Assembly: GCF_001436255.1 (NCBI RefSeq)
Contig: NZ_AZEI01000076.1
Coordinates: 310,001-374,000, forward strand
Length of the DNA: 64,000 nt
DNA from: Lentilactobacillus rapi DSM 19907 = JCM 15042
GTDB lineage: Bacteria; Bacillota; Bacilli; Lactobacillales; Lactobacillaceae
Direction of reading: 5' to 3'
In this document: positions 32,030 to 62,146 of the stretch, in pieces
How positions within the stretch are numbered: position 1 is the stretch's first letter
How the letters are laid out: every line of letters begins with the position of its first letter
Notes under the pieces: generated by a model
The model's database searches: none
Told to the model about the DNA's origin: nothing
What the model saw: only the letters and a program-made list of their open reading frames with translations
Program-made: the position numbers and the translations under genes

Positions 32030-34672
32030 TTATTTGTTAGTTAACCAATCAACAGCAGCGTTCATTGCCTTATCCAACCCGGCCGGATCCTTACCGCCAG
32101 CTTGGGCCATGTTTGGTCGACCACCGCCACCACCTTTAATGTTACCGGCGATTGATTTAATCAAGTCACCGGCCTTAATACCAGCTTTTACCTTATCATC
32201 CGCCACTGCAACAATTAAATTAGCTTTCTGGCCACTGCCAGTTCCTAACACTAATACATCTGAAAGTTTCTTAGATCGCCAAGTATCGGCCAGTTGTCGC
32301 AGCTGATCCATTCCAGCGTCTTTAATGATACCGGTAATGATCGTCTTGTCACCAGCTTGTTTCTTGTCATTAAAGACATTTTGGGCTTGCTGACCAGCCA
32401 GCTTCGCCTCGAGGGACTGCTGTTTTTGCTGAAGCTCTTTGATTTCATCTTGAACTTGAGTTACTCGGGTTGGCACATCCTTGATTTGGTTAACCTTCAA
32501 AGAACTGGCAATTTGATTGAGCTCTTTATTACGATCATTCAGTAATTTAAAGGCATCTTTGGAAGTAACAGCTTCAATTCGACGAATTCCGGCTCCAACA
32601 CCAGATTCCGAGACAATCTTAAACAAGCCGATGTCTCGCGTATTCTTAACGTGAGTACCACCGCAGAATTCGACTGAGAAGTCACCGATACTGACTACTC
32701 GAACCTTGTCACCATATTTTTCACTGAATAACGCAATCGCACCCATCTTCTTACCGGTCTTCGGATCAGTGACAACTGTGTCAACGTTCGTTTCGTTGAA
32801 AATTTGGCGATTCACCATGTTTTCAACTTTTTCCAAATCTTCGTCAGTCACCTGACCAAAGTGGTTGAAGTCAAATCTTAGATAGTTAGGCTCAACTAAT
32901 GACCCGGCTTGTTGAGTATGGCCACCCAAAACATTTCGTAATGATTGATCGAGCAAATGAGTTGCGGTATGGTTCTTTTCAACTCGACTGTGGAACAATC
33001 GATCAACCACTAAGTGATACTTGTTGCCCTTAATTAATGGCTCTTGAGTTTTCAAAGTGTGCAGGTTCTGACCATTTGGCGCATGTTGAACGTCAACAAC
33101 ATCGGCAACCTTATCGCCTTCTTCATCAAGGACAACTCCTCGATCAGCAACTTGGCCACCCATTTCAGCATAAAATGGGGTTTTATCGAAAATGACTTCA
33201 ACTGTCCCACCCTTTGACTGATTAACCAGCTTTTCATTTTCAATAATTTCTTCAATGCTGGCATGATCAACTTCGAGGGTATCATAGCCGACATATTCAC
33301 TATGATCTTTAACTTCAAGCAATAGATCACGTTGAACACCCATGGATTTAGCCCCACTTCTCGCATCACGGGCCCGTTGCTTTTGCTTATCCATTTCAGC
33401 TTCAAATCCCTTATGGTCCACTGTTAGGCCAACCTCCCCAGCTTCTTCTTGAGTCAGTTCAACTGGGAATCCATAAGTGTCATACAGTTTAAATGCCGTC
33501 GGGCCATCAATCACGGTTTGACTATTCTGCTTGGCATCAGTAATCACCTGGTGCAATAACTTCATTCCATCAGCCAATGTTTCGTTAAACCGATCTTCCT
33601 CGGACCGGATGACTTTAGCAATATAATCTTTTTGCTTCAATACTTCTGGATAATAAGATTCAAGTGTTTGACCAACCACTGGAGCCAATTTGTACAAAAA
33701 GGCCTCATTGATTCCCAAACGCTGCCCATTCACGATTGCCCGTCGAATTAGTCTCCGGATTACATAGCCACGGCCAACGTTGGAAGGCAAAGCACCATCC
33801 CCAATGGCAACAGTAATTGCTCGAGCGTGATCAGCAATAATTCTGAAGGCGACATCATCATGTTTATTAGCGTTGTATTTCTTGCCGTCACTTAACTTTT
33901 CGGTTTCCCTGATCATTGGCAAAAATAAATCGGTTTCAAAGTTCGTCCGGGCGTGTTGAAAGATCGAAACCACCCGCTCGAGACCCATTCCAGTATCAAT
34001 GTTCTTTCTCGGAAGAGGTTCATACGTATCTTGGGGCGTGTGGTTAAATTGTGAGAACACAATATTCCAAACTTCCAGCCAACGATCGTTTTCACCGCCA
34101 GGATAATTTTCGGGATCGTCAGCAGCCAAATTATCGAAATCAGCTCCACGGTCATAAAAAATTTCTGAATCAGGTCCTGAAGGTCCTTGACCAATATCCC
34201 AGAAATTATCCTCCATTTCAATGATGTGGTCGGGAGCAACACCCACTTCTTCCCAAAATTTCTTTGCATCTGTATCTTTGGGATAAACGGTCATATAAAG
34301 CTTCTCTTTATCCCAACCAAACCATTTTGGCGAAGTCAGCAATTCAAAAGCCCAAGTGATGGCTTCCTTTTTAAAATAGTCACCAACTGAAAAGTTTCCC
34401 AACATTTCAAATAATGTGTGATGCCGAGGCGTCTTTCCCACATTTTCAATATCGTTGGTTCGGATGCTTTTTTGAGAACTCGTCATCCGTGGATTCTTTG
34501 GAACCACCGAACCGTCGAAGTATTTTTTCATAGTAGCAACTCCGGAATTAATCCAGAGTAAAGTTGGATCCTCAACCGGAATCAAAGAGGCACTTGGTTC
34601 AATTGTATGGCCCTTTTCTTGAAAAAAGTCTAAAAACATTTGTCGGATTTGACCACTGCTTAAGTTTTTCAT
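32030..34672 (-). CDS. alaS: Alanyl-tRNA synthetase
   Basis: 880 aa, full length. Class II catalytic domain (KYFDGSVVPKNPRMTSSQKSIRTNDIENVG), editing domain with zinc ligands HTATHLL and CGGTH, and the C-Ala domain ending GGGGGRPNMAQAGGKDP. It charges tRNA-Ala and clears mischarged Ser and Gly. Two adjacent ATG codons (34675 and 34672) follow AAGGAG; the second gives better spacing. A longer open frame to 34768 runs through the T-box and is not used. It is regulated by the T-box leader and the consensus promoter upstream. Confidence 0.97.
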   Translation of the reverse strand: MKNLSSGQIRQMFLDFFQEKGHTIEPSASLIPVEDPTLLWINSGVATMKKYFDGSVVPKNPRMTSSQKSIRTNDIENVGKTPRHHTLFEMLGNFSVGDYFKKEAITWAFELLTSPKWFGWDKEKLYMTVYPKDTDAKKFWEEVGVAPDHIIEMEDNFWDIGQGPSGPDSEIFYDRGADFDNLAADDPENYPGGENDRWLEVWNIVFSQFNHTPQDTYEPLPRKNIDTGMGLERVVSIFQHARTNFETDLFLPMIRETEKLSDGKKYNANKHDDVAFRIIADHARAITVAIGDGALPSNVGRGYVIRRLIRRAIVNGQRLGINEAFLYKLAPVVGQTLESYYPEVLKQKDYIAKVIRSEEDRFNETLADGMKLLHQVITDAKQNSQTVIDGPTAFKLYDTYGFPVELTQEEAGEVGLTVDHKGFEAEMDKQKQRARDARSGAKSMGVQRDLLLEVKDHSEYVGYDTLEVDHASIEEIIENEKLVNQSKGGTVEVIFDKTPFYAEMGGQVADRGVVLDEEGDKVADVVDVQHAPNGQNLHTLKTQEPLIKGNKYHLVVDRLFHSRVEKNHTATHLLDQSLRNVLGGHTQQAGSLVEPNYLRFDFNHFGQVTDEDLEKVENMVNRQIFNETNVDTVVTDPKTGKKMGAIALFSEKYGDKVRVVSIGDFSVEFCGGTHVKNTRDIGLFKIVSESGVGAGIRRIEAVTSKDAFKLLNDRNKELNQIASSLKVNQIKDVPTRVTQVQDEIKELQQKQQSLEAKLAGQQAQNVFNDKKQAGDKTIITGIIKDAGMDQLRQLADTWRSKKLSDVLVLGTGSGQKANLIVAVADDKVKAGIKAGDLIKSIAGNIKGGGGGRPNMAQAGGKDPAGLDKAMNAAVDWLTNK

Positions 34673-34689
34673 CATTAATTCTCCTTTGA

Positions 34690-34893
34690 CAAAATAAAAC
34701 ACCGTTGCTAACAGAGACGCCGATTGACGCGGTACCACTCTGATTGCAACGATGTTTATCGTAACCACTTAATCTCTATAACGTAGAGTTGCGTTTTCAT
34801 GTGAAAGTTAAGAGAGCACTGATTGGTTTAAATCGTTTTTTACATCAACCAAAACGTTTCTAAAAGATAAATCCAATCAGCATATTCTTAAAC
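34690..34893 (-). promoter_or_regulatory. T-box leader of alaS (Ala)
   Basis: On the minus strand the RNA contains a Stem I with arms CTGATTGG and CCAATCAG. GCT, an Ala codon, follows the 3' arm at 34815-34817 and is read as the specifier. The T-box AGAGTGGTACCGCG is at 34728-34741, and a terminator pairs ACATCGTTGC with GCAACGGTGT before a T run. The TGGT of the T-box fits the A discriminator of tRNA-Ala. Uncharged tRNA-Ala should allow read-through into alaS. Confidence 0.9.
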
Positions 34894-34899
34894 AACCAA

Positions 34900-34928
34900 A
34901 TTATACTTGTTCGTTAAATTGCTGTCAA
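34900..34928 (-). promoter_or_regulatory. Consensus sigma-A promoter of alaS
   Basis: TTGACA, a 17-base spacer and TATAAT on the minus strand, a perfect match to the consensus. Transcription should start near 34893, just before the T-box Stem I. Confidence 0.92.
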
Positions 34929-59543: not shown

Positions 59544-60395
59544 TTATTTATTAATCAACGTACTATCACGATCCGTCCCGAACCATTTCATATCAATCTT
59601 ATGAAGCTCACCGTTCTTTGCCAGTTTATCAAGGCCAGCGTCAATTTTTTGCTTCAACTCGGTGTCACCTTTTCTCATCCCGACACCATAATATTCAGAT
59701 GGGAATTCACTGGGAATACTTCGATAACTTGCGCGATTCTTTTGATGACCAATGTAATAACCTGCATAAATACTATCAATCAGCAAGCCTTGAATCCGGT
59801 TCGCATTCAAATCAATAAAGGCTTCAGTAAACGAATCATACAAGATCGGAGAGTGACCCTTGATCCGATCTTTAAGCAATTTAGGTTGATTATCGATATC
59901 CATTGCCCCAGCTGATCCTGCTTGAACCCCCGCAACCTTGCCTTTCATATCTGCAAAGCTGGCGATGTGGTTTTTCTTCTTAGATACCAAAACCTGCTCA
60001 TTCTTTAGATAAGGCTTACTAAAAGTTAATTTCTTTTCCCGTTGCGGATTGATTGAGAAACCATTCCAGATAAGGTCAATTGTGCCATTCCGGAGTTCCG
60101 TGACGTTCATTGACCAATCAATCGGTTGAAAATCAACCTTGATTCCATACAGTTTAAAGACGGCTCTGGCTAGGTCAACATCATAGCCAACAACCTTGCC
60201 ACTTTTCGTTTGAAATCCCATTGGCACGAAGCTGTCATCCAATCCGACCACAATTTCCTTTTGTTTTGATACAACGGACCAAGTGTCAGGATTAGTATTC
60301 ATCTTTTGTCGATTTTCATAACGACAACCTGATAATCCCAAAACAATCAGCAGAAGGACGATGATCAGTGGACTTCGTTTTAAAAGTTTTGACAT
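59544..60395 (-). CDS. Amino acid ABC transporter substrate-binding lipoprotein
   Basis: 283 aa. Lipoprotein signal peptide with a basic start, hydrophobic core and lipobox LSGC, then a family 3 solute-binding domain (IVVGLDDSFVPMGFQTKSGKVVGYDVDLARAV and LIWNGFSINPQREKKLTFSKPY, in pieces). It is tethered to the outer membrane face and delivers a polar amino acid to the permease. Start MSKLLKR (60395) is preferred because the ATG at 60401 overlaps the AAGG ribosome binding site. The T-box reading suggests cyst(e)ine as substrate; the sequence alone does not show it. Confidence 0.88.
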   Translation of the reverse strand: MSKLLKRSPLIIVLLLIVLGLSGCRYENRQKMNTNPDTWSVVSKQKEIVVGLDDSFVPMGFQTKSGKVVGYDVDLARAVFKLYGIKVDFQPIDWSMNVTELRNGTIDLIWNGFSINPQREKKLTFSKPYLKNEQVLVSKKKNHIASFADMKGKVAGVQAGSAGAMDIDNQPKLLKDRIKGHSPILYDSFTEAFIDLNANRIQGLLIDSIYAGYYIGHQKNRASYRSIPSEFPSEYYGVGMRKGDTELKQKIDAGLDKLAKNGELHKIDMKWFGTDRDSTLINK

Positions 60396-60409
60396 AAACA
60401 TCCTTCTTT

Positions 60410-61045
60410 CTAATCGATTTGTTCCACCCGTTTGATTTCGTCAGCGACATTTTGGGCAAAATCCATATCATGGGTAACCACAATCTGAGTCATCTGTTGT
60501 TTCTTCAAGCCTAAAATAATTTCGGCCACCTCATCTCTCAAGGCTGGATCCAAGGCTGATGTAGGTTCATCATAACAAAGAATTTTAGGATTCATTGCCA
60601 AAGCCCGAACAATGGCAACTCGTTGCTTTTGGCCGCCAGATAATTGGAACGGATATAAGTCTTCTTTACCTTCCAACCCCAATCTAGCCAAAAGCTCGCG
60701 AGCTGTTTTCTGAACTTCAGCCAACGGTAACTTTTTGACCATCGTCGGAGCCAGTGTGATATTGCCCATCACGGTCAAGTTGGGAAACAGTTGGTAATCT
60801 TGGAAAACAACGCCGATAATCGTATCTTTTTGATCCGTGTTTGTCGGATCAAACTGGGTCCCATTCCAGAAAAACTGTCCTTGGTTCACCGACTCTAGTC
60901 CAGTGATGCATCGCAATAGCGTCGTTTTCCCAGCTCCAGAGGGACCAACGATTGCCATTATTTCATTATCTTTGACAGTCATCGAAAGGTCATCAATCAC
61001 AGTCTTTGTGCCGAACTTTTTCGTTAAGTCTTTGATTTCTAACAT
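60410..61045 (-). CDS. Amino acid ABC transporter ATP-binding protein
   Basis: 211 aa. Walker A VGPSGAGKTTLLRC (about 36), signature LSGGQKQRVAI, Walker B ILCYDEPTSALDP and H-loop VVTHDMDFA. It has the GlnQ/HisP-type length and order for polar amino acid importers, but is somewhat shorter than the usual 240 residues because of a trimmed C terminus. It lies 18 bases after the permease and 14 before the binding protein. Confidence 0.92.
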   Translation of the reverse strand: MLEIKDLTKKFGTKTVIDDLSMTVKDNEIMAIVGPSGAGKTTLLRCITGLESVNQGQFFWNGTQFDPTNTDQKDTIIGVVFQDYQLFPNLTVMGNITLAPTMVKKLPLAEVQKTARELLARLGLEGKEDLYPFQLSGGQKQRVAIVRALAMNPKILCYDEPTSALDPALRDEVAEIILGLKKQQMTQIVVTHDMDFAQNVADEIKRVEQID

Positions 61046-61063: not shown

Positions 61064-61708
61064 TTATTGCCAAACATTTTCGCGTTTTTCAATCATTTTC
61101 AAGACAATCGTGCAAACTGCTGTAAGCGCCAAGTAAATGATTCCGACTAAGATCAAAGGCAGCAAAGTGACATCCCTTGCAGTCGCTACATTTCCGGCTC
61201 TCAGCAGGTCGCCCAAACCAATAACGTAAACTAATGAGGAGTCCTTCACCAAATTGATAACTTCATTTCCAATTGATGGTAAGACAATCTTGAAAACTTG
61301 AGGGATTACAATCTTACGGATGGTCTGGCCATAACTCAATCGGAGAACTCGAGCACTTTCAAATTGCCCCTTTGGAACAGATTGGAAACCACCACGGAAA
61401 ATTTCACCAAAGTAAGCAGTGTAATTAAGGATAAAAGCAAACAATGCGGCATCATAACGTTGGAAAATAATTCCTAAAATTGGTAATCCATAAAATACAA
61501 AAATCAATTGCAATAACAACGGCGTCCCACGCATTAGCCAAACATAAATATTTAGCAGCCAAACCAACGGCTTGAATTTTTGGATCAACCCCAAGCCAAC
61601 CAAGGCACCCAATGGGATTGAGGCAATTAACGTCCAAAAGAAGATCGATAACGTCATTTTGGTACCTGATAACAATGCTGGTAAAATTTGTTCGATATAT
61701 TGAATCAT
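61064..61708 (-). CDS. Amino acid ABC transporter permease
   Basis: 214 aa, five membrane segments. It has the HisM/GlnP signature YFGEIFRGGFQSVPKGQFESARVLRLSYGQTI (in pieces, about 100-130), including the EAA loop with Gly that contacts the ATPase. The ribosome binding site GGAGGAATGT precedes the ATG at 61706-61708. It is the first gene behind the tandem T-box leader. Confidence 0.92.
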   Translation of the reverse strand: MIQYIEQILPALLSGTKMTLSIFFWTLIASIPLGALVGLGLIQKFKPLVWLLNIYVWLMRGTPLLLQLIFVFYGLPILGIIFQRYDAALFAFILNYTAYFGEIFRGGFQSVPKGQFESARVLRLSYGQTIRKIVIPQVFKIVLPSIGNEVINLVKDSSLVYVIGLGDLLRAGNVATARDVTLLPLILVGIIYLALTAVCTIVLKMIEKRENVWQ

Positions 61709-61724
61709 TTGACATTCCTCCAAT

Positions 61725-61760
61725 AAAAAAGTCCCCTCGAGAAATTAATCTCAAGAGGAC
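61725..61760 (-). terminator. T-box terminator, module 2
   Basis: GTCCTCTTGAG pairs with CTCGAGGGGAC (two G-U pairs), followed by TTTTTTATT, directly before the permease ribosome binding site. Confidence 0.88.
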
Positions 61761-61815
61761 GATGGTTTTCGCGGTTCCACCTCAGTTTGCAACAACTTCA
61801 CAGTTGCCGTCTCAC

Positions 61816-61950
61816 GGAGTTTAGTATTAATCATAAAAAAATCCTCTTAAGCCAACAAAATGACTTAAGAGGACGATTGTGATCGTGGTTCCACCTCAAT
61901 TTCGTCTCCCACTCGTGTGAAAGACCTCAATAAGTTTAATACTAAACTCC
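61816..61950. repeat. Perfect 15-bp inverted repeat bracketing T-box module 1
   Basis: GGAGTTTAGTATTAA at 61816-61830 (plus strand) and its exact reverse complement at 61936-61950. The arms lie just before the first T-box module and just after its terminator in the RNA, so they could pair only in transcripts that have passed terminator 1. Confidence 0.85.
61833..61874 (-). terminator. T-box terminator, module 1
   Basis: TCCTCTTAAG pairs perfectly with CTTAAGAGGA, followed by TTTTTTTATG. Confidence 0.9.
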
Positions 61951-62117
61951 AGCAATAACGCGCTTACCGCTTTTCCCTACTCAATTCAGAAAAATGACTC
62001 CCAGACGTGAGGCAAATTGGTTAGTTGCTTAACTTCCACCTTGATAAGCTCTCTGTAAACTAATCCAATTCACGGTTCTGATCACAGTCTTTAATACTCT
62101 TTAATTAATTAAAACTC

Positions 62118-62146
62118 ATGATAAACGTTTTGTTAGATATCGTCAA
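62118..62146 (-). promoter_or_regulatory. Promoter of the T-box-controlled ABC transporter operon
   Basis: TTGACG, 17 bases and TATCAT on the minus strand, just downstream of the minD stop. Transcription should begin near 62111. Confidence 0.75.

Follow-up and report, generated by a model that had tools for sequence, protein, structure and literature searches.

T-box leaders with duplicated terminator-antiterminator elements were reportedly recognized as a structural class by Vitreschak et al. in 2008. The leader described here fits this class, in which a single specifier domain is reportedly combined with two expression modules. The dual-module class as such is old, and the new part would be a linker helix in which one strand is shared by both modules, if such a helix is truly unreported.

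The passages considered from the 2020 T-box review count partially tandem T-boxes among the elements whose mechanism is unknown, and a shared-strand swap helix is not mentioned in them (PMC7583486). Complete tandem T-boxes (trp, thrS, ilv, leu), as presented in the relevant part of PMC12452182, resemble the present leader in having two serial terminators under tRNA control, but they repeat the whole sensor, whereas the leader here has only one. With regard to gene context, the relevant passages of PMC9413887 describe for Lactobacillus that hisYZ*X transporters are preceded by His T-boxes, and the RF00230 His T-boxes of such hisXYZ*-type transporters in Lactobacillales are the closest counterpart of our locus in this respect. 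For five Enterococcus species, the same passages report tandem riboswitches ahead of operons for histidine transporters; these possibly have the architecture found here, as family f3 of this order shows it (see below), although they are described there as tandem riboswitches. An alternating linker helix appeared neither in the passages considered from PMC7583486, PMC9413887, PMC12452182, PMC2494555, PMC7778990 and PMC2965389 nor in the titles surveyed. Such a helix would turn the open question of how partially tandem T-boxes work into a few defined mutants. The first-pass annotation of our locus had left open how one Stem I could serve two sites, and the shared-strand helix may be a concrete and testable answer.

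Anatomy and gene context of the leader

The leader is located on the minus strand of the window, i.e. the whole stretch of 64,000 nucleotides from Lentilactobacillus rapi DSM 19907 that was analyzed. It starts near position 62111, ends at 61725 and represents a His-type T-box, in which one Stem I with the specifier CAC is followed by two Stem III/antiterminator/terminator modules. The Rfam model RF00230 matched at 62094-61866 over its full length (model 1-219; 91.8 bits, E 8.5e-21), which is below the gathering score of 93. A gathering-level scan of the whole 64-kb window brought 0 families over their cut-off, so matches were taken by E-value. Among the 43 T-box matches in the genome of the window, 33 stay under the gathering score of 93 and only 10 exceed it; hence, the cut-off is strict here and the leader is still filed as a T-box. 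A default Rfam scan would miss most T-box matches of this genome. The second RF00230 match (61808-61755) covers only model positions 163-216, i.e. Stem III and the T-box/antiterminator without Stem I, and it is weak with 17.0 bits and an E-value of 0.16. Further matches to PyrR, DLEU2 and MIR7991 (E 0.88-2.5) were at chance level and have been discarded.

A promoter-like site, TTGACG-17-TATCAT, precedes the leader at 62118-62146, but it is only suggestive, because shuffled sequences give 1.1 such sites. The Rfam alignment and the sequence define the single Stem I at 61997-62094 with its AGAGAG and GGTGGAAG distal loops; the arms proposed by the first-pass annotation (62014-62026 and 62057-62070) correspond to its upper part. 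The specifier triplet CAC for His was read by eye from the Rfam alignment at 62007-62009 and is conserved in relatives. According to the same alignment, Stem II with a CTGAA...AGTA S-turn-like bulge occupies approximately 61971-61996, followed by the IIA/B region with the F-box CGTTA at 61951-61970; this motif is invariant in the 39 rows of the alignment described below, which were cut to begin there. Module 1 contains Stem III (61904-61925; predicted fold and Rfam), T-box 1 with antiterminator 1 (GAGGTGGAACCACG ... CCTC; 61868-61897; sequence and Rfam) and terminator 1 with its U-tract (61834-61874). In module 2, Stem III is placed at 61789-61808 by the weak second Rfam match, T-box 2 with antiterminator 2 (GAGGTGGAACCGCG ... 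CCTC) at 61755-61783 by sequence and Rfam, and terminator 2 with its U-tract at 61725-61760. Both T-box cores read GAGGTGGAACC, running downwards from 61897 and from 61783 on the minus strand, and are identical as noted before. The terminator search found the two hairpins at 61874-61841 and 61760-61731, compared to a mean of 0.3 in shuffled sequence, and the whole leader folds far more strongly than its shuffles (z -6.1). Thus, the T-box bulge sequence, the antiterminator and the competing terminator are present in both modules.

The initial description of a single Stem I with two T-box cores and two terminators has thereby been confirmed on the minus strand by Rfam, the sequence and the terminator search. 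The gap between terminator 1 and T-box 2, previously estimated at about 50 bases, measures 57 nt, too little to accommodate a further Stem I. Together with the second Rfam match, which lacks this element, the gap rules out a second Stem I between the modules. The Rfam model search, which had been proposed to distinguish one from two Stem I elements, thus returned one full match and one match restricted to Stem III and the antiterminator, and supports the claim that one specifier domain serves two modules. Compared with the RF00230 T-box, the leader is alike in Stem I, CAC, Stem II, the IIA/B region with F-box, Stem III, the T-box bulge and the terminator. It differs in having the Stem III/antiterminator/terminator unit twice and in a linker hairpin with one 5' and two 3' strands.

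The leader is flanked on one side by a MinD-like gene (62960-62154; a name given by eye) and on the other by the operon of an amino-acid ABC transporter. This operon, all of it on the minus strand, codes for a permease of 214 aa (61064-61708), an ATPase (60410-61045) and a substrate-binding protein (59544-60401). NCBIfam assigned no substrate to this transporter; among the matches listed, only the domain model TIGR01726 for the permease was over its cut-off, the best families of the ATPase were GlnQ-like but below equivalog cut-offs, and the substrate-binding protein stayed below curated cut-offs. The operon is probably a histidine importer, a substrate taken from the gene context in the passages of PMC9413887. 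Another T-box match is found in the window at 34710-34904 on the minus strand (genome match C12:344710-344904; 74.4 bits, below the gathering cut-off), where it stands before an open reading frame (32030-34768) that looks by eye like alanyl-tRNA synthetase.

Conservation of the doubled module

Genome contigs were scanned with the permease as anchor, i.e. without selection on the leader, and the best 80 of 547 loci were kept. All of these 80 belong to Lactobacillaceae by title, the nearest 11 to Lentilactobacillus. Both modules occur in 77 of the best 80 loci, with cores 100-133 nt apart, when the core pattern is widened to take in second cores of the type GGTGGCACAGCG. The other 3 of these 80, from Secundilactobacillus malefermentans, S. 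oryzae and Liquorilactobacillus ghanensis, have a single module; by eye, the single-module leaders (L107, L109, L134) retain a linker hairpin. A search with the leader DNA gave matches in 86 of 199 genomes, and the best 30 loci were kept (L031-L060). These were found by likeness to the doubled leader itself, and all 30 have two cores. They include all 24 genomes of the genus, i.e. the own genome and 23 others, so that the loss of one module in close relatives, named initially as a sign of a decaying duplicate, did not appear. The leader of L. dabitei duplicates, over the compared stretch, one that is 99% identical to that of the window.

The first-pass annotation had presented the doubled layout as unusual. 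A strict pattern for two close T-boxes, taken on the pattern alone with any downstream gene and regardless of the number of Stem I elements, matched in at least 38 of 111 sampled Lactobacillaceae genomes from 15 of 40 genera, and once in the genome of the window. Among 398 genomes of the class it was found in at least 13, namely in the window's own, in 2 of family f3, 9 of family f14 and 1 of family f25, compared to 1 of 398 for a reversed-pattern control. Within these families the corresponding lower bounds are 32 of 78 genomes in f3, 16 of 41 in f14 and 1 of 23 in f25. Family f3 belongs to the same order as the host of the window and has a dual architecture before a permease that is similar by eye.

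Two sets of leaders were used in the following. From 110 Lactobacillaceae loci (L031-L140), 3 with a single module and 15 duplicates were removed, leaving 92 unique leaders; from the 32 matching genomes of f3, 30 had loci and entered the set and 2 had none. The specifier CAC was detected by a regular expression in 89 of the 92 Lactobacillaceae leaders, by eye in the other 3, and in 30/30 leaders of f3. A terminator-like hairpin follows both T-boxes in 92/92 and 30/30 leaders, and the antiterminator A1 helix is possible in both modules in equally all of them, both being counts without chance control.

It is extremely improbable that the second module is an ordinary T-box expression platform duplicated by accident or now in decay. 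The single modules in 3 of the best 80 loci would fit such a decay, as would the more variable second core, which is GGTGGNACA or GGTGGAATC in 13 of the 92 leaders (e.g. L073, L074, L082, L096), whereas the first core is GGTGGNACC in 92/92, the search pattern permitting only such variants in either module. However, both modules persist in 77 of the best 80 loci, and terminators as well as possible antiterminators accompany both T-boxes throughout the 92 Lactobacillaceae and 30 f3 double leaders.

In the Lactobacillaceae set, modules 1 and 2 share about 64% identity when taken from one leader and 64% when taken from two; across leaders, identity is 69% among modules 1 and 66% among modules 2. 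Since the identity within a leader is no higher than that between leaders, these comparisons suggest that the duplication predates the divergence of the sampled leaders. A duplication common to Lactobacillaceae and f3 found no support from the identities (65% between modules 1, 61% between modules 2, 67 and 62% for the cross comparisons).

A linker helix with a single 5' strand and two candidate 3' partners

Between the IIA/B region and Stem III, the leader contains a linker hairpin composed of a 5' strand (A), a loop and a 3' strand (B1). In the window, strand A with the hairpin loop extends over 61936-61950 and is the sole 5' strand of the linker helix according to the inverted repeat, alignment, covariation and fold. 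B1 (61932-61938), the first 3' partner of A at the start of module 1, is defined by the predicted fold and covariation. A second copy of the 3' strand, B2 (61816-61830), opens module 2 with no 5' strand of its own apparent. An inverted repeat of 20 nt and 90% identity (61950-61931/61835-61816), absent from the first-pass annotation, encloses module 1, and its 15 outer-end pairs are perfect; thus, A (61950-61936) and B2 (61830-61816) can form 15 perfect pairs around module 1, whereas A:B1 is a 7-pair hairpin. By eye, linker hairpins also exist elsewhere in this genome in some single T-boxes such as L011 and L015.

The energies support pairing of the one 5' strand with the 3' strands of both modules in Lactobacillaceae as well as in f3. 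With the linker region located by fixed offsets from the T-box core, the A:B2 duplex had a mean of -19.0 kcal/mol in the 92 Lactobacillaceae leaders, compared to -6.4 for the local hairpin and -2.0 for the B2 region folded alone, and it was more stable than both local folds combined in 92/92. Relative to shuffled B2 regions, z was below -2 in 85 of the 92. When B2 partners were swapped between 64 Lactobacillaceae representatives, the native A:B2 was superior in 3729 of 4032 comparisons. The 30 leaders of f3 behaved similarly, with -17.5 for A:B2 and -6.5 for the local hairpin, higher stability than the local folds in 30/30, z < -2 in 25/30 and the native over the swapped partner in 604 of 650 comparisons. 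Nevertheless, the native B2 ranked first among all partners of A in only 15 of 64 Lactobacillaceae and 10 of 26 f3 representatives.

A:B1 is a hairpin, hence any copy of B1 will pair with A by descent. On this basis, the second strand could be regarded as a passive relic: the 3' half of the linker hairpin would have been copied along with the module, its remaining complementarity to A would be functionless, and the resemblance of B2 to B1 agrees with such an origin. Nevertheless, we consider such a relic decidedly unlikely. The bases of the hairpin loop are paired by native B2 to 91% and by swapped partners to 46% in Lactobacillaceae (70 and 54% in f3), and because this loop is unpaired in A:B1, its complementarity to B2 is not simply inherited from B1. 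The loop columns also covary with B2 (see below), and the equal module identities of 64% within and between leaders suggest an old duplication with time to drift. The arguments for selection acting on A:B2 are confined to this loop pairing, the covariation and the absence of an own 5' strand for B2. In several f3 leaders (L165-L180), the region before T-box 2 seems by eye to be complementary also to sequence 3' of B1 as far as the TGAG motif in module 1, which gives the impression of an active dismantling of module 1.

Covariation was counted in Lactobacillaceae only, using a MAFFT alignment built from sequence alone of 39 divergent leaders, a divergence-filtered subset of the 92. The following figures are indicative rather than a formal test, since the window's own sequence served to define the helix and phylogeny is not preserved in the shuffles. 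For A:B2, 87.7% of the cells were paired compared to 76.6 in shuffles, changes on both sides occurred in 7 of 11 pairs compared to 4.7 (a number reached by 2 of 500 shuffles), and double-change cells amounted to 51 compared to 14.8. Pairing dropped to 33-53% when the partner was slid by 1-3 columns. The end pairs are poorer, being unpaired in 16 of 39 leaders at columns 13/192 and in 11 at 23/182. Columns 21-23, which form the loop in the window's hairpin, covary with B2. For A:B1, 95.1% of the cells were paired and double changes affected 3 of 7 pairs, a number that 45 of 500 shuffles reach, while its 18 double-change cells were reached by 0/500. Within these limits, covariation supports the pairing of A with both 3' strands in Lactobacillaceae.

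Measured from the base of the linker helix, the T-box core lies at nearly the same distance in both modules, namely 36.7 nt (sd 1.7) in module 1 via B1 and 36.4 nt (sd 1.6) in module 2 via B2. In 88 of 90 Lactobacillaceae and 29 of 30 f3 leaders, the two values differ by no more than 3 nt; the 2 Lactobacillaceae leaders omitted from the 92 had no common A base paired. The search for pairing covered 32-66 nt upstream of the core in module 1 and 32-60 nt in module 2, which bounds the range but not the agreement of the two values. Hence, A:B2 would place T-box 2 where T-box 1 had been.

A candidate switch between the two modules

The anatomy and conservation of the leader, the complementarity and covariation of A:B1 and A:B2, and the equal spacing are computed. 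From these we infer co-transcriptional strand displacement, re-docking of the second module, use of the same tRNA and a regulatory gain. In our main reading, to which we assign a probability of roughly two in three, read-through of terminator 1 is followed by an exchange of modules, in which A swaps from B1 to B2 and module 2 takes the place of module 1 next to the single specifier domain. One decoding domain, consisting of Stem I, Stem II and the IIA/B region, would then serve two interchangeable discriminator/terminator modules in turn. Module 1 would be used first, tethered by the short A:B1 linker hairpin. Uncharged tRNA-His would stabilize antiterminator 1, RNA polymerase would pass terminator 1, and B2 would be transcribed. 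The upstream part of B2, which is complementary to the loop of A:B1, could serve as a toehold for the displacement of B1, leading to the much longer A:B2 helix with module 1 looped out. Stem III of module 2 and T-box 2 would now be at the former distance of module 1 from the decoding domain, and the 3' end of the tRNA would undergo a second test ahead of transcription of the operon. Most simply, this would add a fail-safe terminator that limits leak-through while Stem I remains single. If true, this would represent natural serial checking by one RNA sensor through strand displacement and a principle for designing RNA devices that leak less.

Equilibrium folding backs such a switch in part. In these models, which leave out tRNA, pseudoknots and kinetics, strand A of the window pairs with B1 at 0.84 before B2 is available and with B2 at 1.0 once it is out. 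Across the sets, 72 of 92 Lactobacillaceae and 24 of 30 f3 leaders had A:B1 above 0.5 at terminator 1. A:B2 exceeded 0.5 in 71/92 and 19/30 once B2 was out, and in 62/92 and 13/30 once T-box 2 was out. The combination of A:B1 at terminator 1 with A:B2 when T-box 2 is out applied to 46 of the 92 and 12 of the 30 leaders.

The enclosure of module 1 by A:B2 could also be read as insulation, i.e. the helix would pack module 1 away to avoid misfolding with module 2, and the position of T-box 2 beside Stem I would be incidental. With about 64% identity between the two modules of a leader, cross-pairing is possible. Nonetheless, we regard pure insulation as improbable, because it needs neither an equal distance from helix to T-box (within 3 nt in the 88 of 90 leaders) nor the use of A, the very strand of the hairpin that tethers module 1.

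The number of tRNA molecules involved is a related point. A first tRNA could stay on Stem I and T-box 1 while a second engages T-box 2 mainly by its acceptor end, which would give a steeper response, since two uncharged tRNAs would then be required. T-box 2 retains its bulge sequence; the expectation of two tRNAs is stated for complete tandem T-boxes in the relevant part of PMC12452182, and a sharper response in that of PMC9413887. This scenario appears unlikely for our leader: a second Stem I is absent, A:B2 would draw module 1 away from Stem I, and the equal T-box spacing from the shared helix is simplest if module 2 needs the one decoding domain. If the tRNA is retained, the gain would be less leak and not a steeper response.

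A wider version of the module exchange would describe the leader as a relay, in which the tRNA is held by one decoding domain and checked twice while a loop-toehold swap exchanges the modules in one docking site, so that the leak of the two stages would multiply to a lower value with only one sensor present. It further supposes that this design originated independently in two places, on the linker hairpin in His leaders of Lactobacillales and on Stem III in Phe/Tyr leaders of other Bacilli. We hold this extended version only tentatively, its chances being somewhat short of even.

The doubled antiterminator/terminator also characterizes 21 dual leaders in genomes of families f14 (L141-L149, L154-L164) and f25 (L153). 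Their likeliest specifiers, picked from regular-expression candidates, are Phe (TTC) in 16 and Tyr (TAC) in 5. Here, 20 of 21 leaders had a duplex of higher stability than their local folds, and the duplex was superior to swapped partners in 281 of 380 pairs, while z < -2 versus shuffles was obtained in only 5/21. A:B2 exceeded 0.5 once B2 was out in 8/21, and both switch criteria applied to 5/21. Unlike in the His sets, the module identity is higher within leaders (79%) than in the comparison (72-75%). A strand-swap rule with Stem III as the swapped helix in Phe/Tyr leaders is thus suggestive, the direction being right and the statistics weak. By eye, the second unit of these leaders is without the 5' half of Stem III, i.e. 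the 5' strand that occurs once is Stem III's own. Finally, some of the proteins encoded downstream of the f14/f25 dual leaders look by eye like chorismate mutase.
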